Shown here piece by piece: positions 4,986-21,659 of a DNA stretch of 64,000 nt (position 1 is the first letter of the stretch; every line of letters starts with the position of its first letter). A model generated the notes under the pieces. The model was given only the letters and a program-made list of their open reading frames with translations. It was not told where the DNA came from and did not search any database. Position numbers and translations under genes: made by a program. Source of the stretch: Pacificibacter marinus (lineage in GTDB: Bacteria; Pseudomonadota; Alphaproteobacteria; Rhodobacterales; Rhodobacteraceae); the NCBI RefSeq assembly GCF_018860505.1, contig NZ_JAHKPU010000019.1, forward strand, positions 186,001-250,000, read 5' to 3'.

Positions 4986-5696
4986 TTAGGCTGTAGGCAA
5001 AGAGAATTGCGCATAGTGGATCGCCAAACGGATATCACCTGCAGCGAAATCCCCACCTTCTGCAGTCAAAATCAAATCTTCGTCGCTATAATAGGTCAAT
5101 GGCGCGCCCGTGAGACCGCGCATCCAACTGCCAGACGACAAAGAAAGCCCCGCACCATAACGGTTACTCGACCCTGAAACGCCGACTGAAAACCCTGTCA
5201 GCGTCCCCGTAATGTCGCTCAAGACACGCCCTGTCACACCGTAAACGACGGCTTGCCCCGGAAGCGCAAGTGTCACAGCAGACGTCGCTCCTGCGGCAAT
5301 TGGATGATCAATTTCCTTGACCAAAATTTGCATGCCAGCACCATGGCTGGACAAAGATTGCAAGCCCATTTGCCACGTTGTGCCGTCAAAAGCAGCCCAG
5401 CCATTTTGATCTACGATATAGGCACGCATCCCTAGCGTAACGGGAACAAAGACCCACCCACCACTGACATACAGTGCGAGATTGCCCTCAAAGCCAGCCC
5501 AGTCATTCACCGCAGAATTGGCAACACTGTAAGCGTCGCCTTCTTGCGGCGTCAAAGGGGGCGTATTTTCAGTGACAGACTGCAACCGCAGCTGCATCAA
5601 CCCGTCAAGGCGCGTTATAGCCTCGTTGACGGTGACATGTTTTTGCGCCTGTGCGGCCTGCAAAAGGGGCAGTGAAAAGCGGGTTGTATCACTCAT
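4986..5696 (-). CDS. DUF2793 domain protein at the end of the gene transfer agent cluster
   Basis: The protein has 236 residues from the ATG at 5696 (MSDTTRFSLPLLQ). The segment PLLQAAQAQKHVTVNEAI is characteristic of the DUF2793 family, which is commonly found with phage tail and gene transfer agent genes. The upstream in-frame ATG at 5750 lies inside the preceding gene. The chosen start overlaps the preceding stop by 8 bases and has AAAGGA before it. The C-terminal half is Gly/Ser-rich beta-type sequence, consistent with a tail-fibre or particle-surface role. That role is inferred, not shown. Confidence 0.8.
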   Translation of the reverse strand: MSDTTRFSLPLLQAAQAQKHVTVNEAITRLDGLMQLRLQSVTENTPPLTPQEGDAYSVANSAVNDWAGFEGNLALYVSGGWVFVPVTLGMRAYIVDQNGWAAFDGTTWQMGLQSLSSHGAGMQILVKEIDHPIAAGATSAVTLALPGQAVVYGVTGRVLSDITGTLTGFSVGVSGSSNRYGAGLSLSSGSWMRGLTGAPLTYYSDEDLILTAEGGDFAAGDIRLAIHYAQFSLPTA

Positions 5697-8600
5697 TGAG
5701 GTCAATCCTTTTGAAAAGGCCCGCGCCGAAACTATCGGACATCTGGGCAATTTGAATGGTGTAGAGGCCCGTCAGGCCATCTGCGGTCTTTTGTGACGCT
5801 GCATAGGTCCAAGACGGTGACGTCACATAGTCTTCGCGTAGAACGCTGCCCCCTTGCACGACCTGCACGAGGTAGTTTTCCGATGCTTCACCCAAAGGGA
5901 CTTCTGACGATTGCCAGCTATCTCCATCGATGCGCGTGCGCCGAACCCAAGTGACCGACGTGTCACCCGATGCCGAATGCGATGCCCGCAAATGGGCTGG
6001 CGCATAAGGTCGAAGCCCGATGCCATCAAAGGCTTCCACAACGTGGGTATAGCTTGGGTCATCATAGGGTCGTTGCGATGGGCCAATACGGTAATGCCGC
6101 GCGAGCCCCCGCGCGGATTGCGCAATGTCGATTTGGCGCAGGGCATCGTTGATCAATACAAAACGCGACCCTACCGGCCATGACGCCGCGAGACCATCGG
6201 TTCCCGCCTGCCCGCGCAAGCGCAACGAGATTTCATAAGTGGAGGGGCCAACAAGTGTCGCATTGGCAAACTGGAACACTTCCCAATTTGACGCAGACCC
6301 ATCGCCGATGGCGGCCACATTGGCCCCGTTCAACACATCAATCTCGGACGCTGAACTCAATTCACCGCGCACAAGTTTCACGCGCAGCACAGGACCCCGA
6401 TCCCAAAGCGCCGGATCTGCGGCGCTCAAACTTGTTTGCGTGATCCCAATTGTGGCCCAAGCTGGCAGCAGGCTATTAAACCCATAACCACTATCAGAAC
6501 TGGACGCATAAACAGCCGCCGATCCAGGCCATGGGCTTGCTGTTGCTGCGATATACGGTGCATATGGCGTCTCATCGCCAGTCAAAAGTGGCAGGTCCAT
6601 GAATTGGGACAGCACAGGAACAGGCGCTGAAAACGGTTGAGATGTTACAATTTCCTCAACCATGTCAGAGGGTTCATAGATTTCCTCCTCCACGCGAACA
6701 GCTTCGACTTCGCGCGATGTTCCGAGGGTCGCATGGTCAATACGGTAGCGCGTTTTGCCAGTGTCGCTGTCCAACGCGATCACATCGCCAGCGCCAAGCG
6801 CAAAGTTAGACGGAGGCAAGGCAAACCGCGCCGTGTCCCGTGCGATCCGCGCCTCGGCCAACCAGCGTTCAACGATCTGGCGGCCTTCGGTCCGCGTCAG
6901 CGCCAAAGGCAACTCAGATTGTGAGACCAAGCGACTTTGCTCGTCAGGGAACAGAGCCTCCTCGGCACGCGCGCCATAGTCGGCATCGGCATCGACAAAA
7001 GTCAGCCGGACTTTGCCTGCCACTTCAGCCTCTGGTGCCCGTGTAAGTTCAAGCGCGCCCTCTTTATCCGACGACATGGCCAATATATCTTGCGCCACAT
7101 CAGCCTGTGATTTGCCATCACGCGACCTAAAGGTCAAAAGACCATCGCGCTCAATCGCTTCAAACCCGAAAGCCAACATCAAGGGTTGCAACGCGGATCG
7201 TGCGCCTGAGATTTCCCCAACAGTGTAGCCGCGCACAATGCCGTAGAGCTTGGACACATCCACACCGGTCACGCCAGAGCGCGCGCAGATTTCAGTTACC
7301 ACATCCGACAAAGACCGTGCGGTGGAACGCCCATTGAGCCAATGACCCTTGGCGTAATTACCGCCGTCGTTCCACAGCGACGTAACCGTTGGAAACGCCG
7401 GATAGGGACGCCCATCCCAAGCCCAAACATGAGCCCGCGACATATCAACCATCTGCGATCCGTAAACTTCAGAGACAGGGTTGGCCTCGCTTTCCGTCCA
7501 ATACTCCGTCAATGCGCGTACATATTGTAATTGAATGTAATCATCGCGTCGCCCGTTTGAATACTTGGGCAAAGAGCTTTCAGATGACTTCGCATCGATA
7601 AATTTATTAGGTTGGTTTGTGCCTTTATCTATCGCCGCACAGCCAATTTCAGTAAACCAAATTGGTTTTGATTGAGGCTCCCATAGGGTTGGCGTTTCGA
7701 CGCGCACACCTGCAATACGTTCATGATGGTCGTTTTCCCACCAACTGCGAATATCTTTGTAACGCCAAACCCAATCTTCGCCATAAGCGCCATCTTGAAT
7801 CGGTGTACGAATTTGGGCGTCGGCGTGTTCATCATAAGCGTAGTACCAATCATAGCCCTCGCCGCCCTCTATATTGGCTTTGAGGTACTCAAGATTGTAA
7901 ATCGACCCATAGGCTTCATCTGCATGGCCTTCGTCATCGCGCCAGTCAGACAAAGGCATATAGTTGTCGATACCGATGAAATCGATGTTGTCATCGGCCC
8001 AGAGCGCATCCAGCGGGTAATACAGGTTCCCGTTCAAAGAATACCCTGAATATTCGGACCAATCGGCAGCATAGCTGATCTTACAACTCGCCCCTAAAAT
8101 GACCCTCACATCGGCAGCCAATTGAATTAGCGCATCAACAGCTGGAAATCCGTTTGCGCCCCGAATACGAGTGAGCCCGCGCATTTCAGACCCGATGCAA
8201 AACGCATCCACGCCGCCAGCAGCCGCACAGAGATGCGCGTAATGCAAAATCATCCGGCGGTATGAGGCTTCAGCCGGTCCCGAATATAGCACAGCACCGT
8301 CTGAGATTGAAAAATCGCTAGCCTGAGCCGTTCCCATAAAGGCCGCGACCTCCGCCTCTGCAGCGGCTGTGCCATCTGTCGTACCAGTTTGATCAGGTGC
8401 AAACGACGTCGTGATGCGACCACGCCATGGCAAAGCGGGCTGATCATCAGCGCCACTCCACGGGTCCATCAGGCCATTGTCGGCCAATTGATCCATCAGA
8501 ATGAAAGGATAGAACATCACCGCTTGGCCAGCATCTTGCAGAGCAATGATGGCTTCAATCACGGATTGATCCGAAGGCGTGCCCCCATAAATCACACGAT

Positions 8601-9594
8601 CATCAATATCAGTGGGCACGATGGACGCCGTTGCACGGGAAAACCCGCCGGCCGTCCATGGCATAGTGTTACCATCGACATCGGCCTGTTCCACCTTCGG
8701 CATAAGACGACAATTGCCAACACGCAGATCATCACCGAACCAAGACACAACCAAAGAGGTCGATCCGCAATTCGGCAATTCGTCTTTTAACGCGTCAACA
8801 GAGGTTTCAAAATCCGTTTTACCAGAACCGGAGTTCAAATTTGCTGCAACCGTCTCCCCCACATCGCCTGTCAGATAGACTGGCGTGGTGGCCAACGCAT
8901 ATTCACCTGTGCCAGGGATCATCGCCACAGCATTGACCAAATGAGTCATATCGCTTTTGAATTCAGTCGATTGATCGGGACGCATCACTTCAAACGTGAA
9001 CTGCGGCACACGATTGCCAAAGCTTGACAGATCCAAATCCTCAAACACAACATAAGCGACGCCACGATAGGCTGGGACGAGGCCTGAGCCCTCAACCGCT
9101 TCCATTTTGGGGTCCGGCATTTGATCATCCGCGCCCGTATAGACCCGCATGGTCACATCTTCTGGCGCAATTTCAATACCGTCGGCCCAGATGCGACCAA
9201 CGCGTGAAATCTCGCCTTCGCACAGCGCGATCGCCAATGAAATCGAATAGCTGTATTCTGTGACTTGCGGCTGCGACGATGTTCCTTTGCCACCACCACC
9301 TGTTGTGGAAGAGTTTTCTTGGAATTGAGTGGCCCAGATGACCTGCCCGCCCACACGCATGCGACCATAAACCTGAGCGATTCCAGTGCCCTCAGAGGCA
9401 CCGGTCAGCCGGAAACGATCAATTTTACCAGTCTCAACAACTTGGCTGCCTACGCCCATGACACGTTGATCAATAGCACGCCCGATGGTGGCCCCAATAG
9501 CACGTCCGATGACCACGGATGACAGGCCCAATATGCCGCCGCCAACAGAGGCCCCAGCCGCGGCCCCTACTGCAGATAGTACAATCGTCGCCAT
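5689..9594 (-). CDS. gene transfer agent host-specificity (megatron) protein, g15-like
   Basis: The 1301-residue protein matches the large baseplate/fibre protein at the end of RcGTA-type clusters. A Gly/Ala-rich hydrophobic N-terminus (GAAAGASVGGGILGL) leads into a baseplate region containing TGASEGTGIAQVYGRMRVGG. The GTA TIM-barrel-like domain covers about residues 400-720, with IGSEMRGLTRIRG near 466, DFIGIDNYMPL near 540 and PIWFTEIGCAAIDKGTNQ near 648. It is followed by the phage-tail-3-type region and a C-terminal beta domain. In RcGTA this protein sits at the tail tip and contacts the recipient surface. The frame is uninterrupted, and the gene follows g14 after only 3 bases. Confidence 0.94.
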   Translation of the reverse strand: MATIVLSAVGAAAGASVGGGILGLSSVVIGRAIGATIGRAIDQRVMGVGSQVVETGKIDRFRLTGASEGTGIAQVYGRMRVGGQVIWATQFQENSSTTGGGGKGTSSQPQVTEYSYSISLAIALCEGEISRVGRIWADGIEIAPEDVTMRVYTGADDQMPDPKMEAVEGSGLVPAYRGVAYVVFEDLDLSSFGNRVPQFTFEVMRPDQSTEFKSDMTHLVNAVAMIPGTGEYALATTPVYLTGDVGETVAANLNSGSGKTDFETSVDALKDELPNCGSTSLVVSWFGDDLRVGNCRLMPKVEQADVDGNTMPWTAGGFSRATASIVPTDIDDRVIYGGTPSDQSVIEAIIALQDAGQAVMFYPFILMDQLADNGLMDPWSGADDQPALPWRGRITTSFAPDQTGTTDGTAAAEAEVAAFMGTAQASDFSISDGAVLYSGPAEASYRRMILHYAHLCAAAGGVDAFCIGSEMRGLTRIRGANGFPAVDALIQLAADVRVILGASCKISYAADWSEYSGYSLNGNLYYPLDALWADDNIDFIGIDNYMPLSDWRDDEGHADEAYGSIYNLEYLKANIEGGEGYDWYYAYDEHADAQIRTPIQDGAYGEDWVWRYKDIRSWWENDHHERIAGVRVETPTLWEPQSKPIWFTEIGCAAIDKGTNQPNKFIDAKSSESSLPKYSNGRRDDYIQLQYVRALTEYWTESEANPVSEVYGSQMVDMSRAHVWAWDGRPYPAFPTVTSLWNDGGNYAKGHWLNGRSTARSLSDVVTEICARSGVTGVDVSKLYGIVRGYTVGEISGARSALQPLMLAFGFEAIERDGLLTFRSRDGKSQADVAQDILAMSSDKEGALELTRAPEAEVAGKVRLTFVDADADYGARAEEALFPDEQSRLVSQSELPLALTRTEGRQIVERWLAEARIARDTARFALPPSNFALGAGDVIALDSDTGKTRYRIDHATLGTSREVEAVRVEEEIYEPSDMVEEIVTSQPFSAPVPVLSQFMDLPLLTGDETPYAPYIAATASPWPGSAAVYASSSDSGYGFNSLLPAWATIGITQTSLSAADPALWDRGPVLRVKLVRGELSSASEIDVLNGANVAAIGDGSASNWEVFQFANATLVGPSTYEISLRLRGQAGTDGLAASWPVGSRFVLINDALRQIDIAQSARGLARHYRIGPSQRPYDDPSYTHVVEAFDGIGLRPYAPAHLRASHSASGDTSVTWVRRTRIDGDSWQSSEVPLGEASENYLVQVVQGGSVLREDYVTSPSWTYAASQKTADGLTGLYTIQIAQMSDSFGAGLFKRIDLNE

Positions 9595-9597
9595 GAC

Positions 9598-10041
9598 TTA
9601 GCCTCCGTAATCCGGGAATGAAAAACAAGCCGCCACGCGACGGCACCAAGGCAATGTCAGCGCGTTTTCCACAACGCTGTGCCCGCTATAGGCGTGAATA
9701 AAGGTCGGGGCTGCGCCCGCCTGCCCGACAACCCCCAGATGTTTGGCCACGCCATTTTTGCGCATCCGAAAGAGCAAAACATCGCCTTGATCCATCTCGG
9801 CGATCGGCTTTTGCAACAGGTGGCGTTTGGCGGCGAAAAACAGGCGTTCTTCACGCTGCGGCTCTGACCAATCGGGCGTATAGGCTGGCACCAACTCTGG
9901 CTCTGTACCGTACAGCTCGCGCCAAAGGCCTCGCAGCAAACCTAGGCAATCCGTACCAGCCCCCTTGCACGAAGCTTGATGAACATACGGCGTTCCAATC
10001 CAAGCGCGCGCATGTTGCGCTATTTTGGCCCTGCTCATCAT
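9598..10041 (-). CDS. gene transfer agent NlpC/P60-type peptidase, g14-like
   Basis: The 147-residue protein carries the NlpC/P60 fold. The catalytic Cys lies in GTDCLGLLRG (about residue 32) and a His in KHLGVV (about residue 101), with a further His in FIHAYSG. In RcGTA the equivalent tail-tip protein is thought to cut peptidoglycan during DNA entry. Two adjacent ATGs (10041 and 10038) are possible starts; GAGGGG lies just upstream. It overlaps the end of g13 by a few bases and precedes g15 by 3 bases, as in other RcGTA-type clusters. Confidence 0.94.
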   Translation of the reverse strand: MMSRAKIAQHARAWIGTPYVHQASCKGAGTDCLGLLRGLWRELYGTEPELVPAYTPDWSEPQREERLFFAAKRHLLQKPIAEMDQGDVLLFRMRKNGVAKHLGVVGQAGAAPTFIHAYSGHSVVENALTLPWCRRVAACFSFPDYGG

Positions 10042-10952
10042 GCGTTCCCCTCTGTGTTCGCGCTGCTGGCATTCATACTGCCCCCCTCATTGAGATCACT
10101 CGACACAGGATATGATGTCAGCCAGTCCTCGCCTGGGATGTGGGGAAAGCCTTGAAAATTCAGAAAGTTGTCAAACTTCAGACGGCAGGTCTCAACGCGT
10201 CTATCACAACCGGCCTCAATGCGAATTTGATCGCCAACGTCAATCTCGGCACGCAGAGATTCCCAAAGTTCAATCGTGCGACCGCCTGACGAAAGACGGT
10301 CATTTTTGACAACGCCAACAAGACCTTGGGCTCCGCCTGAGAGTACAACAACTCTGCCACTTTCGAACCAACGATCATCAAACCCCTCTAAGGCTGAAAA
10401 GGAAAAGAGTTTTGCGTCATCAATGGATTCAACAGTCACCTCAGTGCTATATCCAAGTGAAGTCCTATCAAAGCCGCAACCAGCCCCGCCCAAAACAGCC
10501 GAACAACTGGATTGATACACACGACCTTGTGGCTGATTCAGCGCCTCAGTAAGCCCGCGCAACTCGGCGCGAAAGCCGCCCACAGCGCGGGTGATTTCAC
10601 CAAACGACCCACTGAACTGCAACACACGTTCCGACGTATTAGCCCAGTTGATCAACCACGCCTTCACAGCTGCACCATCAAAACGACCCGCTTGGATGTC
10701 TGCTTCAGTCACCACAGCGGATGACAAAGCCCCCAAAGCTTCGGTGTTATCGACCGATAACCCCGTGGATTGCTCAAGCGCGTTTGCGGTCAGCCCTGTG
10801 CCTGCCGCAAAAACAAGACCATCGAACTCAAGATCTGTATCATGGTCGGTGAACCCATAGGTTTTACCATCTTTACGAATGACGGCCCAACAGCGGCAGA
10901 CAGTCGTCGTACCACTTGCCAAATGTGTATAAAGTGCGTCGCTATCGGTCAT
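10038..10952 (-). CDS. gene transfer agent DUF2163 baseplate hub protein, g13-like
   Basis: The protein has 304 residues from the ATG at 10952, which overlaps the g12 stop in a TGATG arrangement; a GTG lies one codon earlier. Typical DUF2163 features are the N-terminal CRCWAV and DHDTDLEFDG segments and the C-terminal GCDRRVETCRLKFDN. The conserved cysteines (CRC, SCSAV, AGCGFD, GCDRRVETC) fit the iron-sulfur-binding hub protein described in the RcGTA structure. Position between g12 and g14 is canonical. Confidence 0.92.
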   Translation of the reverse strand: MTDSDALYTHLASGTTTVCRCWAVIRKDGKTYGFTDHDTDLEFDGLVFAAGTGLTANALEQSTGLSVDNTEALGALSSAVVTEADIQAGRFDGAAVKAWLINWANTSERVLQFSGSFGEITRAVGGFRAELRGLTEALNQPQGRVYQSSCSAVLGGAGCGFDRTSLGYSTEVTVESIDDAKLFSFSALEGFDDRWFESGRVVVLSGGAQGLVGVVKNDRLSSGGRTIELWESLRAEIDVGDQIRIEAGCDRRVETCRLKFDNFLNFQGFPHIPGEDWLTSYPVSSDLNEGGSMNASSANTEGNA

Positions 10953-11584
10953 CACACACGCACCTCCACCACAGGTACGTTTGGCACTTCACCCGCCTGA
11001 AAAGACGACACAGACGTCGCTATTCTATCGGTATCAAAACGCACGGGCACGTCAAATTCAAACCCTGCGGTGATCGAAATGCCCTCTTCTGGCGGTGTCT
11101 CGAACGTGATGAGCCCCGTCGTGACGTCAACATCCCATGAAATTGTTTCCTGTAGTTCAACGCCTTGCGTGCCGACCTTAACGGTTCCCAAAACCGGTTT
11201 TGTAATGGGACGAATATAGGTGGCCGCGCCTGAGCTGTAGTTTTTATTCAACTGAAACACCGCTGTTTCACCGTCGCCAGTTCCAATCACTTGATCTTCA
11301 AAACTCACGTCTTGGGACGCCTTGGACGTCTTAAAATCCGACCAATCTTTCCACCGAAAGCCGTATAACTGGCCTTGGCGCGCTTCAAAAAACGCGATCA
11401 AAGCTTCGATATCATCAAGCGACCGCATGCCAAGGCCAGCATCATAGCGGCGCCGCGAATGCGCCCAAGGCGTGTTGCGCTCTTCAAACCCGTTGGCCAA
11501 GGTGACAACTTCGGTGCGCCGCTCAGGGCCACCTACAGAGCCAAAGCTCAGGTTCGCCGGAAATCTTACGTTATGAAAACCCAT
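10952..11584 (-). CDS. gene transfer agent DUF2460 distal tail protein, g12-like
   Basis: The protein has 210 residues. The ATG at 11584 follows GGAGGGGGACCAC. An earlier in-frame ATG at 11599 overlaps this ribosome site and is not preferred. The translation has the DUF2460 pattern: FHNVRFPANLSFGSVGGPERRTEV near the N-terminus (broken here by no gap) and RRRYDAGLG, DIEALIAFFEARQGQLYGF further on. In RcGTA the homologue forms the distal tail ring that joins tube to baseplate. It overlaps g13 by one base. Confidence 0.92.
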   Translation of the reverse strand: MGFHNVRFPANLSFGSVGGPERRTEVVTLANGFEERNTPWAHSRRRYDAGLGMRSLDDIEALIAFFEARQGQLYGFRWKDWSDFKTSKASQDVSFEDQVIGTGDGETAVFQLNKNYSSGAATYIRPITKPVLGTVKVGTQGVELQETISWDVDVTTGLITFETPPEEGISITAGFEFDVPVRFDTDRIATSVSSFQAGEVPNVPVVEVRV

Positions 11585-11644
11585 GTGGTCCCCCTCCATC
11601 GGTGGTGCTGCGGGCGCTTTGGCCCGAAAATTCGAAATGTCGTG

Positions 11645-12307
11645 TTATTGGTTACGCGATCCGCGCCCCAAAGCGCGGCTGAGCTGTGCTGCAACCTGCG
11701 ACTGGGATCTTGTGAAACCTTGCACATCTGGCGTAGTAATATTCATCGTGACGTTCACGCTTTTCGATCCACCAGATGCGACCACCCCAAGTTTGCCATT
11801 GGCACCACGCGACAGTGGCATAATAGCCTCAGGGCCGGCTTCTCCCATCAAACCAGCACCACCGCGCATCGGGAAATAAGTCGGACTAGAGACAACCCCG
11901 CCTGTGGCAAAGGGGGTCACGCGGCCTTGGGAAAAGCTGCCGCCTTTCTCAAACGGCAACAGCCCTTGGATGATGGCTTCAAGCCCATTGCCCAAGGCTG
12001 AGCCGACGTGATTTGTCACAGGGGTCACAGCGGCATTATAAGCCGCGTTCAACATCGACGTTCCTACGCCGCGCATAACTTGTGCCAATGTATCACCATC
12101 AAAAACCAAACCGTCGATGGCGCGTTTTAAACCTTTGGAAATACCACGCTCAAGCGTGCCAACTTCGCGCTGCGTCTCGGCAACAGTCGCTTGAAGGCGC
12201 ACCATTTCTTGGTTGAACGCGGAGGCCATAGCCTCGGCACCGCCCATAGAGTCTTCCATCTGAGACAGCTGGTCTTCGAATTTGTCTAGACCATTAATAT
12301 CAGCCAT
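11645..12307 (-). CDS. gene transfer agent tape-measure protein, g11-like
   Basis: The 220-residue protein starts with a coiled-coil-prone region (DKFEDQLSQMEDSMGG, then a long helix). A Gly/Ala-rich middle follows, and then the conserved phage tail-assembly segment GRVTPFATGGVVSSPTYFP and GAGLMGEAGPEAIMPLSRG. Its short length fits the short tail of gene transfer agents, since the tape measure sets tail length. The start overlaps the preceding small gene by 8 bases. Confidence 0.92.
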   Translation of the reverse strand: MADINGLDKFEDQLSQMEDSMGGAEAMASAFNQEMVRLQATVAETQREVGTLERGISKGLKRAIDGLVFDGDTLAQVMRGVGTSMLNAAYNAAVTPVTNHVGSALGNGLEAIIQGLLPFEKGGSFSQGRVTPFATGGVVSSPTYFPMRGGAGLMGEAGPEAIMPLSRGANGKLGVVASGGSKSVNVTMNITTPDVQGFTRSQSQVAAQLSRALGRGSRNQ

Positions 12308-12536: not shown

Positions 12537-12544
12537 ATTGCCCC

Positions 12545-12859
12545 CTATCCAGGCACGGTGAACGCGCGCGCAATCAGCGCAGCCCCCACCCGTGCCGCTT
12601 CAAATGGACCACCAGAGATTTCAGCGACAAGGATGTCATCGTACCCGCCAGTCCAGCCGCCCCCGCGCAGACCAGCGACCACAAGACGCAACACATCGCT
12701 CGTGGAAAAATTGCCCGCCTCATAGCGTTCGACCATGGCCACAAGCGTGTCTGTTTCCAGACCTGCTTCGAGTTCGGCCAAAGCACCCAGCGTTAATTTC
12801 AACACATAACGTTTGCCATCCAGCGTCAGCGCCACTTCGCCTGCGAAAGGGTTTGCCAT
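12545..12859 (-). CDS. gene transfer agent tail assembly protein, g10-like
   Basis: The 104-residue protein has FAGEVALTLDGKRYVLKLTL followed by LGALAELEAGLE and a RLVVAGLRGGG segment, the pattern of gene transfer agent family proteins with a tail-tube-chaperone role (GTA_TIM-independent, DUF3356-like). It sits 3 bases after the major tail gene. An exact biochemical role has not been shown for the family as far as I know; a tail-assembly role is inferred from position. Confidence 0.88.
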   Translation of the reverse strand: MANPFAGEVALTLDGKRYVLKLTLGALAELEAGLETDTLVAMVERYEAGNFSTSDVLRLVVAGLRGGGWTGGYDDILVAEISGGPFEAARVGAALIARAFTVPG

Positions 12860-12862
12860 AGG

Positions 12863-13276
12863 TTACACCGCCGTAAAGGTCAGCTCGCCCGCAGACGACA
12901 TGGACAACTCATAGGTTGCCTCGCCGTTGTGCGACCCAGCATATTCAATCGAGGTCAATTGAAACGCGCCTTCGACGGTGCCAAAATCAGGGATGATCAC
13001 CTGAAAATGAGGCACTTCGCCGTCGAAGAAAATCTGACGCGCACGCTCGTCGGTGTTCTCATCTTTGAACACGCCCGAACCTGAAATAGACGCGGATTTC
13101 ACCCCAGCACCGCCCAAAAGTTCGCGCCAACCACCCGAGCTTTCGAGCGAGGTCACATCAACACTTTCAGTATTGAACGAAATGCGCGTCGCCCGTAGGC
13201 CTGCGATGGTTTCGAATTGACCAGCGCCGGTCATGTCGAGTTTGATAAGAAGATCTTTTCCGTTTTGAGCAGCCAT
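12863..13276 (-). CDS. gene transfer agent major tail (tube) protein, g9-like
   Basis: The 137-residue protein begins MAAQNGKDLLIKLD and includes TIAGLRATRISFN, VDVTSLESSGGWRELL and an all-beta C-terminus, as in phage major tail proteins of the TP901-1 type used by RcGTA. Repeated rings of this protein form the tail tube. It lies between the DUF3168 tail completion gene (72 bases upstream) and g10. Confidence 0.92.
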   Translation of the reverse strand: MAAQNGKDLLIKLDMTGAGQFETIAGLRATRISFNTESVDVTSLESSGGWRELLGGAGVKSASISGSGVFKDENTDERARQIFFDGEVPHFQVIIPDFGTVEGAFQLTSIEYAGSHNGEATYELSMSSAGELTFTAV

Positions 13277-13348: not shown

Positions 13349-13759
13349 TTAGGTATCTTCGACGCGCGCCATGAACCGAATATCGATCCTACGCACATCA
13401 CTGTCTTGAACGCGCCGCGCTTTCGCGGACACGAAATAAAGCCCGATCAGACGACCACGGGACAGCGTCAAATCGGCATCAACCAACACATCAGAAATCG
13501 CAGCTGCGACCCCTTTGGCCGTCAAGAAACCGGCCGTGTCTGACACAACGCTGATCACGAATTCATGCCGCGCACCGTGACCTGTTTTGTCTGAGGCATC
13601 AGTGACATCCTCTGGCCCAAGGCTGACGTAAAGTGAAGGCACAGTGCCCGTCGGCGCCGCGTCATAGATCGCGCTGCCAACCAACCCCGTGAAGGTCACA
13701 TCAGCGGAAAGTGATTGAAAAACAGCCGTTTGCAAAGCTGCGGATACGCCATAACTCAT
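13349..13759 (-). CDS. gene transfer agent DUF3168 tail terminator protein, g8-like
   Basis: The 136-residue protein shows the DUF3168 pattern: a start with SYGVSAALQTAVFQSL, then GSAIYDAAPTGTVPSLYVSLG and TGHGARHEFVISV. Family members cap the tail tube at the head-proximal end. Its start overlaps the g7 stop by 4 bases, and its length is normal. Confidence 0.92.
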   Translation of the reverse strand: MSYGVSAALQTAVFQSLSADVTFTGLVGSAIYDAAPTGTVPSLYVSLGPEDVTDASDKTGHGARHEFVISVVSDTAGFLTAKGVAAAISDVLVDADLTLSRGRLIGLYFVSAKARRVQDSDVRRIDIRFMARVEDT

Positions 13760-14097
13760 GATGCAACCTCCTCACGCGATTGACAGGCCAAATAATGTCC
13801 CTGCGCGTCCAACTCAGTGACAGACAGGATACGAAACACGCGCCCGCCCTCAAGAAAACGCTGATCCGGCTTGGGGCGTCGCGGCGATCCGACAGGTGCG
13901 CCACGCACAATCACTTTCATTGGAACACGAGAAACGGTCAGAAAATCCTCAGAGCGCTCTGTCCCTGTACCGGCTTGAATATTGGCCCAAAGGGTTCCAA
14001 GCTGCGTCCATGTTTCCACATAGCCGCCCGCCCCGTCAGAGCTCCGCAAAGCCTCCTCCAGCACCAGTTTGCGATTGAGGTGAACCACTACAGACAT
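13756..14097 (-). CDS. gene transfer agent head closure protein, g7-like
   Basis: The 113-residue protein contains LVLEEALRSSDGAGGYVETW, GTLWANIQAGTG and RFLEGGRVFRILSV, which match phage head-tail joining (head closure) proteins. It overlaps g6 by one base and g8 by 4 bases. Confidence 0.9.
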   Translation of the reverse strand: MSVVVHLNRKLVLEEALRSSDGAGGYVETWTQLGTLWANIQAGTGTERSEDFLTVSRVPMKVIVRGAPVGSPRRPKPDQRFLEGGRVFRILSVTELDAQGHYLACQSREEVAS

Positions 14098-14693
14098 CAG
14101 CCGCGCCCCCCGAACAACCGCACATTGCGGTAGCGTTCCAGCAGCGCGCTCACGCCAAAAGGCATCGCACTGCTACTGACCGCTGTTTCATGGCGGTGCT
14201 CGTAAAAATGAGCCGCCAAAAGCATCACGGCATGTGCCAAATCAGCGGGTAGATCCCCCCAAGCGGGGCCATATCCAGCCGTAAATTCGATACGCGCCTG
14301 TCCCGCAACGGGCACAGACGGCAAGACAAAACTGCTGGACACGATCCGCGGGCGGTGTGTGTCTTTATCAAGCAGATATTTGCCCGCATCGACAACAGTT
14401 TCAGCACCCAAACGATCCACGATCACCAAGGCAGTAATCGCGCCCACGGGGGCCACTGGCAGCGTTTGCGCACCAAGATCGCGCCACGCCGAGACGGTCC
14501 AAGCAAAGTCTCGTTCGATCAATACTTTGTCCGTGCGCGCTTCAACTGCAGCCAGTGCTGCACGCAAGTATGTCTCAAGAACCCCGTCCTGAACCCCGTC
14601 GTCGCCAAAGCCCGTGCCCAGCCTCAAATGCTCTTTGAACTGCGCAACCGGGAGCACCGCTAAGGGTACTTGGCTTTGCTCCATTAACATCAT
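14097..14693 (-). CDS. gene transfer agent head-tail connector (adaptor) protein, g6-like
   Basis: The protein has 198 residues from the ATG at 14693, which has GGAG 8 bases upstream. Longer in-frame starts read through sequence that does not look coding. Motifs include LPVAQFKEHLRLG, LRAALAAVEARTDKVLIERDF (split by no gap), IEFTAGYGPAW and DLAHAVMLLAAHFYEHR. These fit the phage connector protein that binds below the portal. The 166-base gap to the capsid gene is the largest within the head module. Confidence 0.9.
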   Translation of the reverse strand: MMLMEQSQVPLAVLPVAQFKEHLRLGTGFGDDGVQDGVLETYLRAALAAVEARTDKVLIERDFAWTVSAWRDLGAQTLPVAPVGAITALVIVDRLGAETVVDAGKYLLDKDTHRPRIVSSSFVLPSVPVAGQARIEFTAGYGPAWGDLPADLAHAVMLLAAHFYEHRHETAVSSSAMPFGVSALLERYRNVRLFGGRG

Positions 14694-14859
14694 GGTACAT
14701 CTCCGATTTCCGGGTCCCCCTGCCACTTGTGATGATGGATGCGCGCCCCCGTGTTGCTCGGACGGAGGGGGAGCAGCTAGACAACACGTCAAACGAGACG
14801 CGCACCCACCGCTCGTGCCTGACCTCGAAAGGTCACACACGAACTCGTTCAGTTACGAA

Positions 14860-16086
14860 TTACGCGACCGAGAACTTCAGCAATTTGATCGCCGCAAAGT
14901 CACTCACATCACCACCGACACGCTTTGTTGCGTAGAACAGCACATGGGGTTTGGCTGAAAATGGATCACGCAAGATGCGCAAATCAGGGCGTTCGGCCAC
15001 AGTGTAGCCTGCAGCAAAATCACCAAAGGCGATGGCCGCTGCATCAGACGCGATGTCTGGCATGTCTTCTGCGATCAACACAGGGTAGCCCATGAGACGC
15101 GCAGGTTCGCCCGCGGCCAAACCATCAGACCACAAGAAGCGGCCATCAGCATCCTTGAGCTTGCGCACTTGGCCAGCTGTTTTCGAGTTCATCACAAATG
15201 TACCGTTTGCGCGGTACTGAGCGCCCAAAGAGTACACAAGTTCGACGATCGCATCCGCCGGATTGGTCACGTCAAAGCCAGCATCAGTGCCTGTCGCGAC
15301 ATATCCCAATGAACCCCAAGTCCAACCATCGTTGTCAATCTGAGCATGTGCCAAAATGCCTGTTGGCTTATCGATGCCGTCACCGTTGATAAAGGCTGAG
15401 GCCTCTGAGGCTGCAAATTTATCCGCTATACGACCCGCCAACCATGCCTCGATATCAAAGGCTGCATCATCCAAAAGACGCTGGGATGCCTTAGGCAACG
15501 CAGACAGTTCAAACAACGGAATAGAGATACGATCAATCGTTGACGTTCCTGTTTCAGAAACAGACCCCGTCTCCGTGACCCAGCCTGTGCCCACGTCAGT
15601 TGTGTCGATCAGAACATCGTAAGATGTCGCCTCGACGTTGACCACATTGGCGATGGACCGAATAGAGGCTGTGGATTTGAGCACTGATTTGATCGTCTCC
15701 GCAGTTTGCGGGTCCACCAAATAGCCGCCATCGCCATTCACGGCTGTGGACATGGATTTGCCTTCAAGGGCCAGACCACGCAACGCGTCATCATCGCCGA
15801 TACGCACATAGGCGCCAAATGCTGATTTATGTGACATATCAACCTCTTGAGATACGGAAAGGGCCGGACGGCCGAAATTGTGTGATTTACGATCAAGCAT
15901 GTTCAGTCGCTCTTCTTGTTCATTAAGCTTCATTTTGATATCGGTCTGAAAGTCTTTGAGATCACTCATGAAACCGGCCAGCGCGGTCTTCACCTCAGTG
16001 GCAGGTCCAGCCGTGGACGACACTGTGTGGGCCGACATATCGGACACACCGGTACCGGCCCGAGCCTTTGTCTCGGTTTTGCTCAT
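14860..16086 (-). CDS. gene transfer agent major capsid protein, HK97 fold, g5-like
   Basis: The 408-residue protein has an N-terminal scaffold-like helical region (about 30-70, with KLNEQEERLNMLDRKSHN), which in RcGTA is removed by the g4 protease. A HK97-fold core follows: AVNGDGGYLVDPQTAE, SIANVVNVEATSYDVL, VGTGWVTETGSVSET, FVMNSKTAGQVRKLKDADGR and GYPVLIAEDMPDI. It ends in KRVGGDVSDFAAIKLLKFS. Length and domain order match the RcGTA capsid protein. The start follows AAAGGA. Confidence 0.95.
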   Translation of the reverse strand: MSKTETKARAGTGVSDMSAHTVSSTAGPATEVKTALAGFMSDLKDFQTDIKMKLNEQEERLNMLDRKSHNFGRPALSVSQEVDMSHKSAFGAYVRIGDDDALRGLALEGKSMSTAVNGDGGYLVDPQTAETIKSVLKSTASIRSIANVVNVEATSYDVLIDTTDVGTGWVTETGSVSETGTSTIDRISIPLFELSALPKASQRLLDDAAFDIEAWLAGRIADKFAASEASAFINGDGIDKPTGILAHAQIDNDGWTWGSLGYVATGTDAGFDVTNPADAIVELVYSLGAQYRANGTFVMNSKTAGQVRKLKDADGRFLWSDGLAAGEPARLMGYPVLIAEDMPDIASDAAAIAFGDFAAGYTVAERPDLRILRDPFSAKPHVLFYATKRVGGDVSDFAAIKLLKFSVA

Positions 16087-16134: not shown

Positions 16135-16722
16135 TTAAATGCGAGCCAGCTGCTTGCGTGCGCCGGTTAAGGCATCCGCGAGTTCACGCATCATGGTCTC
16201 AGCATCAAAGGGATCGCTCCCCTTTTCCTCTGTCACCAATCGCGCCTCAGGAAGCATCGGAAAGGTCACCAAAGACACTTCCCACAGCTCCAGTTCAGAC
16301 AAAAGCCTTGCAGCTTTGCCATCAGTTTGGTCGCGCAGCTTTTGTGCACGCACCGTGCGGTAGCCGATCGACAACCCGTCAATCGCCCCCGCTTGTATCA
16401 ACGCCACAGCTTCACGGCCTTTATCAACATCCGTCAGCAAACGCCCTTTGACATAGAGGCCCCGCGCATCTTCTCGCACCTCATCCCAAATACCGATGGG
16501 CTGAGCCGGATCGTGCTGCCAGAGCATTTTCACAGAGCGCCCTTTGACTTTCAGCGCGGCCAAAGATTTGCGGTAAGCGCCTTCTTGAACAATGTCGCCA
16601 CCTTGGTCACGACGTCCAAAAAGCGAGGCATAGCCTTCGATTTCGACACCATCAGTGACCTTAATCTCGTCACCCAAACGCATGAATTTATGCTCTAGCC
16701 CACTGTCATTTTGCTTATACAT
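16135..16722 (-). CDS. gene transfer agent prohead protease, HK97 family, g4-like
   Basis: The protein has 195 residues from the ATG at 16722, 8 bases inside the portal reading frame and preceded by GAGGAG. Motifs of the HK97 prohead protease are GYASLFGRRDQGGDIV, VKMLWQHDPAQPIGIW with the catalytic His, DGLSIGYR with the catalytic Ser, and LWEVSLVTFPMLPEA. It trims the capsid scaffold domain before DNA packaging. Translation is probably coupled to the end of the portal gene, so the portal frameshift could also reduce expression of this gene. Confidence 0.93.
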   Translation of the reverse strand: MYKQNDSGLEHKFMRLGDEIKVTDGVEIEGYASLFGRRDQGGDIVQEGAYRKSLAALKVKGRSVKMLWQHDPAQPIGIWDEVREDARGLYVKGRLLTDVDKGREAVALIQAGAIDGLSIGYRTVRAQKLRDQTDGKAARLLSELELWEVSLVTFPMLPEARLVTEEKGSDPFDAETMMRELADALTGARKQLARI

Positions 16723-17976
16723 CGGGTGTCTCCTCAATTTGCTCATCGCTCTCGTTTGAGGTAAAATCATCGTCTTCGAACACTTCTGCATGGGCTTCAG
16801 CGTTCAAAGGTGGCAGACCCAACATGGCGCGTTTTTCATCCGCTGTGAGAAAATCGGCCTTGGCCACGCGATTCCACTGCGCATCGCGTTCTGGTGCCAA
16901 CGCGGAAACCTGATCCAGATCTGGTTTCAACCCGACAGCCTCACCCGTCATCTCAGACAGCCAATGGCCGATTGCGCCCGTGACCTTTTGCACCAAAGGC
17001 AGCACCGTCAGGCGGTAAAAAGCGCGATTTGCCTCTTGGTAATTGCCATAAGTCGCATCCCCAGGAATACCCAACAGCATCGGCGGCACCCCAAATGCGA
17101 GTGCGATTTCGCGCGCGGCGGCCTCTTTGGTCTTTTGGAATTCCATATCAGAGGGGCTAAAGCCCATCGGCCTCCAATCCAAACCGCCTTCTAACAACAT
17201 CGGGCGGCCTGCATTGCGCGCGCCTTGGTGATGACTTTCCATCTCGCTCAACAGGCGATCATCAGGCGATCATATTGATCTGAGCTCATCGACGATTGCC
17301 CGTCAGAGCCGCCATAAACAATCGCACCTGACGGACGCGCTGCGTTATCAAGCAGACCTTTTGACCAGCGCGACGCCGAATTATGCACATCAATCGCCGT
17401 GGCCGCCGCTTGGATCGGAGACAACCCGTAATGATCATCGCTCGGGTGGAATGATTTGATATGACACACTGGCGATTGCCCATCGATCACGTCAAAACGG
17501 TGTTTGCGATTGCCCACAGCATATTCATAGGCCACGGGCCAACCGTCTTCTCCGGGCACCAATCCCATGCGATCAGAGCGCAAGACATGCAGTTCAACGG
17601 GCACCTGCCCCCAGTCGCCGACAGCTTCCAAATAGCCGTTGCCAGACAACAGGATCTGCGCGTAAAGCGCTTCAAACAGGTCCGCGCGACCCTGTACCGG
17701 ATTGGGACGCGAAATGACCGACAAAAGCGGATGTTCATCGAAACGCGCATCGCGATTTTGCAAGATCATCGGCAAAGCAGCGGCCGCTTCGGCGATCAGT
17801 TTCACAGACCGGAACCCTACCGGATTCCCCGTAAAGCCAACCCGTGTCAGCGTCGTCGTATCACGCGGGCTCCATGCCACACGGCCTGCGCTTGAATAAG
17901 CGATCGCGGGACCCGTGGCTGAGGCTTTCACCTCAGGCTGCGCTTGTGCGCCTCGCTTCATAAAGTCAAACACCAT
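16715..17976 (-). pseudogene. gene transfer agent portal protein, g3-like, frameshifted
   Basis: Two adjacent open frames together make one HK97-type portal protein. The first starts at ATG 17976 (AAGGAG upstream) and carries VGFRSVKLIAEAAAALPM, HPLLSVISRPNP and LSGNGYLEAVGDW. It ends after SSDQYDRLMIAC at 17248. The second holds ESHHQGARNAGRPMLLEGG and AFGVPPMLLGIPGDATYG. At the join, an 11-base sequence is duplicated in perfect tandem (17252-17273). Deleting one copy restores a single frame reading QYDRLLSEMESHHQG. The portal forms the vertex through which DNA is packaged, so this allele should not produce a normal particle unless frame is restored or the window has an assembly error. Confidence 0.9.
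17252..17273. repeat. perfect 11-bp tandem duplication inside the portal gene
   Basis: CAGGCGATCAT occurs twice back to back (17252-17262 and 17263-17273, plus-strand reading). Eleven is not a multiple of three, so the duplication shifts the portal frame and exposes a TGA at 17248-17250. Confidence 0.97.
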
Positions 17977-18336
17977 ATCCGTGTCTCTCCTTAAACGTCT
18001 TGCAGATGCCAAACCGCACCCCGCTATATGACGACGCTTGAACACCTCGTGTCCCACGCCCTCATGGCTCATCTCTCAACTCAAACTTTGGCCCTCGGGG
18101 GCCGCCACTGGGGCTACTCCGCGAGGGCCTGGAAAGGGGACATGATCCGCGATCTCGCGCATCAAAGCCCAAACGCGGTGTCCGCGCCTTCCCAAAAATC
18201 GTCCCAACTGGCGGTCTGTGCAAAGCCTTGGTTGCATCTGCTCGCCTTCGGTAAAAACAGTTTTAGGGGATAGGTTAAAACATCTTACTAGCAGCGCGTA
18301 CGGTGCTGCGCGCGCGGCGCAACACCTGCTTGAAGG
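17977..18336. other. 360-bp gap between large terminase and portal genes
   Basis: No convincing gene is visible. A 54-codon minus-strand frame starting near the middle and an 81-codon plus-strand frame exist but have no recognisable residues and no good ribosome site. The gap is striking because most other junctions in this cluster overlap or are separated by only a few bases. Confidence 0.5.
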
Positions 18337-19758
18337 CTAACCCAGCGTGCGAATACGCGGGCGCGTATGGCCTGCCGCAGGTGCGATCATCACCTCATAG
18401 ATGGCCCAGACAAGCGCATCCAAACGGTCGGGTGACCCTGAGGCTTGAAACCCCTGCGACGTCATCTTGACCATTTGATCCTCTAAGTCGCCAAGCCCAC
18501 GGGTATGAAAAACCCGCCCCTGATCATACAAAGCCGCCACAGGTTCTGCGCGCGCCGCTTTGCCGCGTGTGGCCCGCACAGATTTGTAAGGCACCATAGG
18601 ATCAACTTGACGCAGAACGCTTTCAACCAAATCCCCACCTTGGTTGACCTCCGCCACGATTTTATCGGCTTCCCAGCGCTCAAGCGCATCGATTGCACCC
18701 TTGGCCCAAGCCGTAGGGGATGCCGCTGACATCGTTGCATCTTCCAAAACATATGCGCGCCAATCTTGTGGTGGACCTTGCGTCACAGCCCCCACGACAA
18801 TAATCCCGCATTCATCAGACCCCTTGTGCGAGGTCACAGGTGGATCAACAGCAACAACGATGCGATCAAAATCGGGTAAGCTATCTGCGCGCTCTTCTTC
18901 CAACTTCGCCAATGACCACAAGGCACCGTCTTCCTCGTCCAGTAAGACCCCATCCAATTCTTGCCGCCCCAGCCGCGTGCCGGCATAGCGCCTGCGCACC
19001 TCTTCTAAAAACGAGGGCGCTAAATTCGCTGCGTTGGCCTCGGTTGGCGCACGCGTGACAATGCTGGAGTCCAAATCCAATATTTCTTTGAGAATGCTCA
19101 CATTGCGCGGCGTCGTCGTCACCACTTGGCGCGGATCATCGCCCAAGCGCAGACCGAACTGTAGCATGTCCCACGCCTCGCGCGGCTTTTTCCACTTTGC
19201 CAATTCATCAACCCATGCGGCATCAAACTGCGGGCCCCGCAGCGCTTCGGGATCATTACCAGAAAACACCATAGCCTCTGCCCCGTTGGGCCAGACCAGC
19301 GCACGACGCGTGGCAATCCATTTGGGGCGGCGATCAGGCGGCGAACAGGCCAAAATACCGGAATCGCCAAAGACCATCACCTCGCGTGCTTGATCATAGG
19401 TCTCGCCCACCAGCGCCACGCGTTTGGCACGACCCACCTCAAGCGCGCGCGCGCCTTCCACCATAGAGCGCACCCATTCAGAGCTCGCTCGTGTTTTGCC
19501 CGCACCGCGTCCGCCCATAATCACCCATGTGCGCCAATCGCCCGCCGGCGGCAATTGATGGTCCAAGGCCCAAGCCTCGAACAAAAAAGGGAGCGCCAGA
19601 AGCGCTCCCTGATCGTTGCTTTCCAGATCATTCAAGAACTGGGTCTGCACCGCGAGATCTTCGGACGCGATCCAAGCTATCAAGGATCGCAGCCCGGGCG
19701 GCGTCAAAGTCGATGGCTCCATCAATGGTCGCAAGTTCGAGTTTTCGTCTGTCGTCAT
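18337..19758 (-). CDS. gene transfer agent large terminase (packaging ATPase/nuclease), g2-like
   Basis: The ATPase domain has Walker A GGRGAGKTRASSEW and Walker B AAWVDELAKW. The C-terminal nuclease domain has VVAVDPPVTSHKGSDECGII and ALVWAIYEVM near the end. The N-terminal segment LIAWIASED...LALPFLFEAW is what family members usually start with. The start is uncertain: ATG 19758 has a weak AAAGG site, ATG 19722 has none, and a TTG at 19683 fits the family N-terminus best. All of these overlap the small terminase gene, by about 56-131 bases. The protein cuts and pumps DNA into the head, non-specifically in gene transfer agents. Confidence 0.92.
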   Translation of the reverse strand: MTTDENSNLRPLMEPSTLTPPGLRSLIAWIASEDLAVQTQFLNDLESNDQGALLALPFLFEAWALDHQLPPAGDWRTWVIMGGRGAGKTRASSEWVRSMVEGARALEVGRAKRVALVGETYDQAREVMVFGDSGILACSPPDRRPKWIATRRALVWPNGAEAMVFSGNDPEALRGPQFDAAWVDELAKWKKPREAWDMLQFGLRLGDDPRQVVTTTPRNVSILKEILDLDSSIVTRAPTEANAANLAPSFLEEVRRRYAGTRLGRQELDGVLLDEEDGALWSLAKLEEERADSLPDFDRIVVAVDPPVTSHKGSDECGIIVVGAVTQGPPQDWRAYVLEDATMSAASPTAWAKGAIDALERWEADKIVAEVNQGGDLVESVLRQVDPMVPYKSVRATRGKAARAEPVAALYDQGRVFHTRGLGDLEDQMVKMTSQGFQASGSPDRLDALVWAIYEVMIAPAAGHTRPRIRTLG

Positions 19759-19969
19759 CAACTTTCTGCCTTTCTCTGAGCGCCGTATCTTGGGCTTTTC
19801 GCATCTCTGCGATTGCCTTTTGAACGTCAACTCCGGTGCCCACGTCTCCGCTTTCCAATCGGCACATGGCCGTTTCAAGCGCATCTATGGTGCGTTCGAG
19901 GTTTCGATTTGCAGACCCAAGAATAGATTTTGGGTCAAACTCATCCCCCACAGATGAATGCAAAGTCAT
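19628..19969 (-). CDS. gene transfer agent small terminase-like protein, g1-like
   Basis: The 113-residue protein is mostly helical and charged. Its middle (QKAIAEMRKAQDTALRERQ) looks like a coiled coil, and the C-terminus (DFDAARAAILDSLDRVRRSRG) resembles the TerS of RcGTA. It is the first gene of the cluster, upstream of the large terminase. The ATG at 19969 follows AGAGGCAGGTAAC. The family is short and fast-evolving, so the call relies on position as well as sequence. Confidence 0.85.
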   Translation of the reverse strand: MTLHSSVGDEFDPKSILGSANRNLERTIDALETAMCRLESGDVGTGVDVQKAIAEMRKAQDTALRERQKVDDDRRKLELATIDGAIDFDAARAAILDSLDRVRRSRGADPVLE

Positions 19970-20468: not shown

Positions 20469-21659
20469 TTATTCAACGGCAGCGCCAAAGATTGCAATCA
20501 CCGCGCAAAGCATTGCGATGACGCAGAAAAACACCATTTTGGTGATCCCTGCACCATCGCGTTTGGCTAAACCAACCGCGATCAGCGCTTGCAGCGTGTA
20601 ATAGACGGCGAAAGCTTTTGACGCCCACGAAATAATCAAAAACACATCCGCGCCCCATGTGATGGCAACGCCAAAGGCCACCAAAATAACATAGCCAAGT
20701 TTGACTGATATCCGCCCCTTTGTGAGTTCATAAATCAATCCACCTGCCCCTGAGGTGTCCGCCACAGCGGCTGAAAACTGCGCCGCTAAAGCGGCAAACA
20801 CCAATAGGATTGGCAGAATAGGCGCAACCAAAGCCATCATATCAATGATCGCCGTTTCCGAAGGCTGGATCTGATCTGCTTCAAACACATAAGCGATAAA
20901 CACTACATAGATCATATAGATAGCTGTAGAGACACCCTGGGCAATCCGCATAGAACGGACCCGCATCTTTGCATCATACTCTTGGCCCAAATAACGCGAG
21001 GTCTCAAACCCTTGCACGGTGACCAACAGGCCAAACAGCAGGCTCACACCAGCCCAACCTGTCGTAGCAACAGGGGCAAATACCATTGCATCTTGCTGTA
21101 CAGTCTCGGCCAAAAACCACCCCAATCCGAACAAAAGTCCCCCAATGATCGCAAGCTTTAGGCCAACCGACAGCTGTTCTAATCGCTCCAAAGCGGTGAA
21201 GCCTTTGGTCCATCCAACAGTCAAAATCACCGCAAAAACAGCCGAGGTCACGATCCGCCCTGCCAGTGCAGTGTCCCAAGGCGTCAAGCTGACTGCAAAA
21301 GACCCAAGCAAATTGAGGTAATAAGCAACCGAAATAATATAGGCAAAAGACAAAGCCCATGAGGCCAAGGTTTCAATGTATTTAGAAATCGGTCCGTGAT
21401 CACGTTGATCCACAGCCACGATATTAAATCGAATGACCCCGCCAATCGCGTAAGCCATCGCACAAAGCGCTGCCATCGCAAGAGGGGTCCCTGCCCCGTA
21501 AGCCTGTGCGAGGATTGGTCCAAGCACCAAAAAACCGCTGCCAATGATCGAGGCCAAAGGGGTCGCAGAGGCGCGCCAAAGCTTTGCCTTGGCCAATCGG
21601 GGCCAAGCTAAAATAGCCCCCACAAGTGCAGTCACAATAAGAATGCCTATGGTTTGCAT
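20469..21659 (-). CDS. APC-like multi-spanning membrane transporter, substrate unknown
   Basis: The 396-residue protein is strongly hydrophobic, with about 11-12 membrane segments. The first is at the N-terminus (TIGILIVTALVGAILAW). The region SIIGSGFLVLGPIL resembles the helix-1 G-rich motif of amino-acid/polyamine/organocation (APC) transporters. I cannot assign a substrate. It lies downstream of mltG on the same strand, but an inverted-repeat structure separates them, so it may be transcribed alone. The start at ATG 21659 follows GAGGGACGACC. Confidence 0.8.
   Translation of the reverse strand: MQTIGILIVTALVGAILAWPRLAKAKLWRASATPLASIIGSGFLVLGPILAQAYGAGTPLAMAALCAMAYAIGGVIRFNIVAVDQRDHGPISKYIETLASWALSFAYIISVAYYLNLLGSFAVSLTPWDTALAGRIVTSAVFAVILTVGWTKGFTALERLEQLSVGLKLAIIGGLLFGLGWFLAETVQQDAMVFAPVATTGWAGVSLLFGLLVTVQGFETSRYLGQEYDAKMRVRSMRIAQGVSTAIYMIYVVFIAYVFEADQIQPSETAIIDMMALVAPILPILLVFAALAAQFSAAVADTSGAGGLIYELTKGRISVKLGYVILVAFGVAITWGADVFLIISWASKAFAVYYTLQALIAVGLAKRDGAGITKMVFFCVIAMLCAVIAIFGAAVE

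Follow-up and report, generated by a model that had tools for sequence, protein, structure and literature searches.

Why should a single gene of an otherwise conserved gene transfer agent (GTA) cluster be interrupted by a short perfect duplication, and does the interruption represent a recent loss of function, a reversible allele or a fault of the assembly? This question is raised by the portal gene in a stretch of 64,000 nucleotides (termed the window), which forms part of contig C5 (516,171 bp) in a draft genome of 3.65 Mb and 51 contigs. We consider it likely that two recent and independent loss-of-function alleles exist, one here and one in a sister species, and that the allele in the window arose by a genuine 11-bp slip in the portal gene, g3.

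The portal gene and its cluster

The window carries an RcGTA-like head-tail cluster on the minus strand, which extends from about 19.9 kb to 5.7 kb and comprises genes for terminase, portal, protease, capsid, g6-g14 and g15 (Table 1). The g-numbers were assigned from gene order and family, with the gene order of RcGTA assumed as the guide. Co-linear head and tail families of the RcGTA type are present, including the GTA_TIM megatron and GTA-gp10. From the sequence alone the rest of the cluster had been judged intact, and this holds for the genes tested, all of which are open; the statement covers the assigned genes, with the small genes g1, g3.5 and g10.1 outside it. A guessed g10.1 at 12308-12544 showed eight stops when read and was dropped. 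The first 41 terminase codons probably lie upstream of the true start, because the corresponding frames of relatives have stops there. Just upstream of the terminase gene is an ORF of 396 aa (20469-21659) that has no Pfam match and shows approximately 70% identity in Pacificibacter marinus DSM 25228; only its first 31 residues match in the F2R14 genome described below, and it has no match in the fetched stretch of P. maritimus.

Table 1. Positions of the assigned GTA genes, the portal fragments and the duplication in the window.
Feature	Position	Strand	Evidence
Large terminase (g2), open	18340..19884	minus	PF03237, PF17289
N-terminal portal fragment	17251..18072 (listed ORF 17248-18072)	minus	PF04860 positions 2-178, E 6.3e-40
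Perfect 11-bp tandem duplication (CAGGCGATCAT x2), within portal gene	17252..17273		sequence; absent from F2R14 and two intact relatives in alignment
C-terminal portal fragment, different frame	16718..17251	minus	PF04860 positions 181-321, E 3.5e-41; ORF list
Prohead protease (g4), open	16138..16791	minus	PF04586
Major capsid protein (g5), open	14863..16086	minus	PF05065
g6 head-tail connector, open	14100..14840	minus	PF05135, weak
g7 head completion, open	13759..14097	minus	PF05521
g8 tail completion, open	13352..13759	minus	PF11367
g9 tail tube, open	12866..13276	minus	PF06199
g10, GTA-gp10 family, open	12548..12859	minus	PF11836
g11, tape measure by position and length, open	11648..12307	minus	no Pfam match; conserved in three relatives
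g12 (DUF2460), open	10955..11599	minus	domain match
g13 baseplate hub, open	10041..10955	minus	PF09931, PF09356
g14 NlpC/P60 peptidase, open	9601..10041	minus	PF00877, 22.9 bits, just below cut-off 23
g15 megatron, 1301 aa, open	5692..9594	minus	GTA_TIM PF13547 E 1.9e-145, PF13550, Rcc01698_C

The HK97-type portal gene (g3) is split into two frames, a reading that rests on alignment to intact relatives and on tblastn, which places the halves in frames -1 and -3. A complete portal gene is expected of an RcGTA-like cluster; that of the window genome is divided between these frames. The proposed identity as a GTA portal is confirmed by the PF04860 matches and by the intact homologue of DSM 25228, which matches the RcGTA portal Rcc01684 over residues 20-395 of 396 (E 5e-176); by alignment the break lies at about residue 245 of 396 of Rcc01684. 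The true start of the gene is probably the MVFDFM codon near 17991, behind GGAGAG, and from this start the N fragment would be approximately 247 residues long, the last few of them out of frame. The N half stops at a TGA (17250-17248, minus strand) that shares two bases with the TTG (17251-17249) opening the downstream ORF, and re-initiation at this TTGA overlap could yield a C fragment.

The 11-mer CAGGCGATCAT stands at 17252-17262 and again at 17263-17273 as a perfect tandem pair, and occurs nowhere else on the plus strand of the window. The duplication proposed for this site was thus located in both its copies, and Tandem Repeats Finder agrees, reporting period 11 at 17248-17273 with 2.4 copies and 93% matches. 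When the window was aligned to the intact portals of DSM 25228 and P. maritimus, its sole length difference over the aligned stretch was 11 bases; together with the PF04860 matches of the halves in two frames, this bears out the claim that the duplication breaks the gene. A TCA at the left edge of the array resembles the end of the repeat unit, and a slip between these short matches may have given rise to the second copy, a suggestion that we word with caution because the fit has one mismatch. No other perfect tandem pair in the window has a unit of 10-40 bp. Among 200 sequences simulated from the dinucleotide frequencies of the window, such pairs occurred at a mean of 0.105 (at least one pair in 21 sequences), and pairs with a unit of exactly 11 at a mean of 0.03 (6 sequences). 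On the 516-kb contig, scanned for units of 7-60 bp with an N run excluded, nine perfect pairs have units of 10 bp or more, so that perfect tandem repeats are uncommon there, not unique.

A putative activator gene of the GafA type is present elsewhere in the window genome, as a DUF6456 gene on contig C14 with an open frame of 408 aa. Both this genome and F2R14 carry such a gene together with a GH108 endolysin domain; we take DUF6456 to be a mark of GafA and the GH108 domain to be that of the GTA endolysin.

A separate lesion in the sister species

By the relatives of its portal N half and by a tree of the activator-type (DUF6456) protein, the window genome falls with Pacificibacter. Among the best 80 of 197 relatives of the N half, 'Pacificibacter marinus' F2R14 ranks first (98% across N-half residues 1-271), followed by P. 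marinus DSM 25228 (89%), P. maritimus (83%) and Celeribacter species. Because DNA identity between the window region and F2R14 is 91-92% over two stretches summing to some 65 kb, the two genomes are treated as sister species and not as strains. The tree joins them with support of 98/96 and groups the pair with DSM 25228 and P. maritimus with support of 96/95; 9 of its 16 inner branches are unresolved and several rows are long-branched. It took 19 of the 20 same-genus genomes (G000, the window genome, and G001-G019, among which G009 is F2R14), G005 being omitted because its copy sits at a contig end. Sampling was one genome per species. No further strain of the window species was present among these best 80 N-half relatives or among the best 80 of 165 IMG/VR matches, and no environmental allele in the latter was assigned to the species because the top match, at 89% identity, lies at the level of DSM 25228.

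The portals of DSM 25228 and P. maritimus are intact. That of F2R14 is without the duplication and lacks 2 bp from a GC run approximately 29 bp downstream of the duplication site (CACCAAGGCGCGC, versus CACCAAGGCGCGCGC in the window), which leaves ORFs of 280 and 171 residues that overlap by about 44 bases. As judged from the alignment, the F2R14 portal is broken independently and by a different lesion, a point that is new relative to the sequence-only reading. A shared ancestral lesion was rejected because each sister is without the other's change. Programmed frameshifting was likewise rejected as a common cause, since lesions of +11 and -2 bases would need opposite shifts at different sites. 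The repeat is missing at the site from F2R14, DSM 25228 and P. maritimus, the three relatives aligned, and was present in 2 of 315 fetched loci, many of which do not cover the portal; both were cut from the window genome, and no fetched relative has it.

Beside the break lies a tract, between about 17000 and 16400, in which identity between the window and F2R14 is 0.65-0.88, compared with 0.85-0.98 in most of the surroundings. The tract takes in the C-terminal end of the portal and the beginning of the protease gene, and stays in frame. Synonymous divergence (dS) between the two genomes is 0.81 in the portal C half and 0.90 in the protease, versus 0.21 in the portal N half; within the tract the sisters are 78.1% and 75.2% identical to DSM 25228 and 73.7% identical to each other. 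The tract is probably a homologous-recombination import in one of the two sister lineages, for which no donor was found among 160 loci. Such an import was considered as the cause of the break and set aside, as the tract begins approximately 250 bp downstream and stops short of the lesion.

Between the window and F2R14, 13 GTA genes or parts of genes (4037 codons; portal C half and protease kept out because of the divergent tract) give dN 0.0189, dS 0.299 and dN/dS 0.063, and 22 flanking genes give dN 0.0145, dS 0.299 and dN/dS 0.049. A dN/dS of 0.063 implies that unconstrained time makes up at most about 6% of the combined two branches, a bound that assumes such time to be the sole source of amino-acid change. 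The cluster therefore resembles a recently pseudogenized GTA, with a disabling change, otherwise conserved genes and little further decay. The suggestion that the loss is recent is supported by this conservation, and is extended by the parallel loss in F2R14.

Frequency of broken portals and quality of the assemblies

An uninterrupted full-length portal match was found by Pfam search in 15 of 20 same-genus genomes, the window genome included. The exceptions are the window genome and F2R14, in which the match is split, G005, which has a short N-terminal piece, and G015 and G016, which have no match. Of the 80 genome loci that the N half retrieved, two have a true frame break, namely F2R14 and Maritimibacter sp. 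55A14 (L035, near reference residue 345); seven other stops lay at protein ends and one locus (L078) was cut short. Across 160 loci drawn from the overlapping genome and IMG/VR sets, breaks were counted in 4/159 portal, 0/147 terminase, 0/152 capsid and 3/154 protease genes, after incomplete genes had been dropped (terminase 9, capsid 3, portal 1, protease 3) and loci with no match left uncounted (terminase 4, capsid 5, protease 3). The four broken portals are those of F2R14, L035, L240 and L264 (internal stop), and L240 is probably the same organism as L035, with equal match ranges and identities. The idea that the portal is a special mutational target is unsupported by these counts.

In a family-wide search, at least 243 of 296 genomes gave a portal match. 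Twenty-nine of the 243, picked for weak scores or several matches, were re-examined: a split was seen in one portal, that of G267, where five G stand in a row next to it, and truncation in four (G205, G031, G059 and G125); the rest are complete or almost complete, distant second matches being taken for prophage portals. The resulting count is a lower bound, because breaks near the 3′ end, as in L035, escape the screen. The split in G267 (L152), near model position 233, and the end of the G205 portal (L153), at about 235, lie fairly near the points at which the portals of the window and F2R14 break. Broken portals are thus uncommon elsewhere, at roughly 1-3% of genomes, a frequency at which two independent breaks in two sisters are unlikely under a uniform rate, and weakened or conflicting selection in the Pacificibacter lineage is suggested.

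Three of the 20 same-genus genomes (G005, G015 and G016) have neither a gp10 nor a Phage_capsid match, yet retain a GH108 endolysin domain and DUF6456, the G005 copy of the latter being partial where its contig ends. In these genomes the activator-type and lysis-type genes appear to outlive the structural cluster. In G005 about 113 portal N-terminal residues stand inside an open frame of 771 codons (L157, near 5245-5583), possibly a fusion left by deletion of the cluster.

Frame scans of the GTA region found 1 of 36 genes of the window genome broken with DSM 25228 as the reference and 1 of 38 with P. maritimus, the portal each time; for F2R14 they found 2 of 41 with the former reference and 1 of 42 with the latter. 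The additional suspect in F2R14, an alignment of 55% identity with three internal stops, is read as a wrong-strand ORF, and by these scans the portal appears to be the only clear break among some 40 neighbouring genes in both broken genomes. With F2R14 proteins placed on the window genome, 1 of 60 was suspect (one stop), and in the reciprocal comparison 3 of 60 were suspect, of which two carry one stop each and the third is a PilZ-domain ORF that matches in two frames; repeats with a higher length limit gave 1/55 and 3/53. The PilZ-domain ORF lies at 24227-25699 in the window, and its first hundred residues match F2R14 in another frame (65%), which reflects either a frame difference or a wrong start.

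Over the whole 516-kb contig, the portal was the one frameshift among 53 testable genes, the remainder of the 292 references being beyond comparison because synteny with the contig of DSM 25228 is limited. A second, unrelated region gave 2/80 suspects when F2R14 proteins were placed on the window genome, one a stop-bearing alignment and the other a possible 5′ frame difference. With DSM 25228 as the reference, this region gave 2/57 on the window genome and 2/55 on F2R14, and these suspects are probably faults of the reference ORFs because the same places recur in F2R14. P. maritimus on the window genome gave 0/15, and the window genome on F2R14 gave 1/75. At G000:C14:15410-16200, the first 55 residues of a gene match an F2R14 protein in a frame other than that of the rest. 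By these measures the window assembly does not appear to be full of indels, and a generally poor assembly is unsupported, the few suspects apart. Completeness is 96.67% for the window genome and 95% for F2R14, both drafts, whereas 16 of the 19 other same-genus genomes reach 99-100%, which counts against certainty. Outside the window, at G000:C5:375643-375792, a run of about 109 N has 9-bp tandem units on both flanks and forms a scaffold gap where a tandem array probably lies.

Competing readings and the expected consequences of portal loss

An error of assembly or sequencing in one or both genomes, with the portal intact in the cells, is an unlikely explanation. The draft state and lower completeness of the two assemblies, the N gap on the contig and the few frame suspects elsewhere speak for it, but the window genome shows no other frameshift among its 36 and 38 scanned neighbours or the 53 contig genes, and each of two sister assemblies would need its own, unrelated error in the same gene, inside a span of about 60 bp. 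Error in both assemblies at once is unlikely, and base-calling errors do not usually take the form of an exact 11-bp tandem insertion. More plausible, although we hold it only tentatively, is that selection has weakened on the lineage and that the lesions mark early neutral decay of the cluster and not favoured breakage; this overlaps the preferred reading, from which it differs in cause and not in the nature of the allele. Lesions in two sister species, and the lack of gp10 and Phage_capsid in 3/20 same-genus genomes, are consistent with such decay. So is the ratio of GTA to flanking dN/dS, which is 1.30 between the sisters and 0.61-0.70 in five other pairs, and so are the nonsynonymous to synonymous counts on the terminal branches, 34:205 for GTA and 34:394 for flanking genes (Fisher P 0.011 jointly), which indicate a possible slight relaxation of selection on GTA genes. 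However, the flanking genes are few and were selected post hoc, significance is lost when each branch is taken singly (P 0.09 and 0.12), the dN/dS is still 0.063 with no further disabling change in the genes tested, and other genomes stand closer to the broken pair than the GTA-less ones do.

Reversibility had been proposed on the grounds that a tandem repeat can revert by slippage, so that a population might mix producers and non-producers in phase variation of a suicidal public good. Loss of one copy from a perfect direct repeat is possible in principle, conservation of the gene lasted until recently, and revertible alleles of another social system, agr, have been published, which arise by a duplication plus inversion and by a poly(A) tract (PMC6686034). 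Nevertheless, there are two copies only, the three aligned relatives, two of them intact, show no conserved or copy-variable array at the site, the repeat is confined to loci from the window genome in a set that often does not reach the portal, and the F2R14 lesion is of another type and not another repeat state; a switch of this kind is therefore unsupported, and we regard it as very improbable. Scarcely better placed, and still improbable, is a broader form in which short slippage mutations in the portal repeatedly switch GTA production of Pacificibacter off, and perhaps on, such that populations are standing mixtures of producers and portal-null cells and the two isolates are snapshots of the off state. 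A two-piece portal, with both halves made through translational coupling at the TTGA, would fit the overlap of stop and TTG start and the conservation of both halves; yet the halves of F2R14 break elsewhere and overlap by about 44 bases, and conservation can predate a lesion, and we give this possibility almost no credence. An 11-bp target duplication left by a departed transposon is not preferred because no leftover element bases lie between the copies.

Under the preferred reading of two recent and independent null alleles, a slip in replication or repair would have copied 11 bp a second time within g3, part of an RcGTA-like cluster that has long been conserved, shifting the frame near residue 245 of about 395 and removing the complete portal, and a separate slip would have struck the same gene in the sister species. 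The RcGTA portal is dodecameric and stands at one vertex of the capsid in place of a pentamer (PMC7296036). Since the portal is the vertex for entry of DNA to the head and its exit, a cell expressing the cluster would be unable to package or deliver DNA, and loss of the approximately 150 C-terminal residues should abolish packaging. In Caulobacter, in a GTA-overproducing background deleted for rogA, the GTA-dependent gain in survival disappeared when the gene for terminase, portal or major capsid protein was deleted (PMC9632790). The alleles would then be real in the cells, the particles would not be made, and non-producers would have risen repeatedly in the lineage.

The window cluster has the same families, in the order g2 to g15, as RcGTA of Rhodobacter capsulatus (portal Rcc01684, PDB 6TBA and 6TE8). 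Unlike RcGTA, an active producer, it has a g3 split by a duplication. Pseudogenized GTA clusters have been taken as recently emerged cheater lineages, as presented by Kogay and Zhaxybayeva (2024, PMC10883770). Like the clusters treated there, the present one is conserved, bears a disabling change and is expected to belong to a non-producer; it differs in being a resolved case, with one recent lesion per genome, in two sister species, and with activator-type and lysis-type genes kept. We read the two broken Pacificibacter portals as a case of this published idea of young cheaters. There is also a likeness to revertible agr-negative Staphylococcus aureus, in which a social trait is disabled by a sequence change able to revert (PMC6686034); there reversion was observed, whereas the Pacificibacter portal is known from the allele alone. 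In the open-licence literature no paper that joins Pacificibacter and gene transfer agents was found, nor, by title or partial abstract, any case of a GTA portal frameshift.

How suicidal GTA production persists is an open question. In a model, GTA-positive populations proved unable to resist invasion by GTA-negative cells, and in the same paper Redfield and Soucy discuss the restoration of defective GTA alleles by transduction (PMC6209664). Parallel and very young portal-null alleles, with intact cousins alongside, provide a natural test of whether such alleles are short-lived cheaters, the onset of a lineage-wide loss, or revertible. A portal-null cell in which activator-type and lysis-type genes are retained is also informative, because its behaviour settles the meaning of the allele. 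The window cell, which keeps DUF6456 and GH108, may still express the cluster and lyse, and lysis without export of DNA would make it a failed producer and not a cheater.
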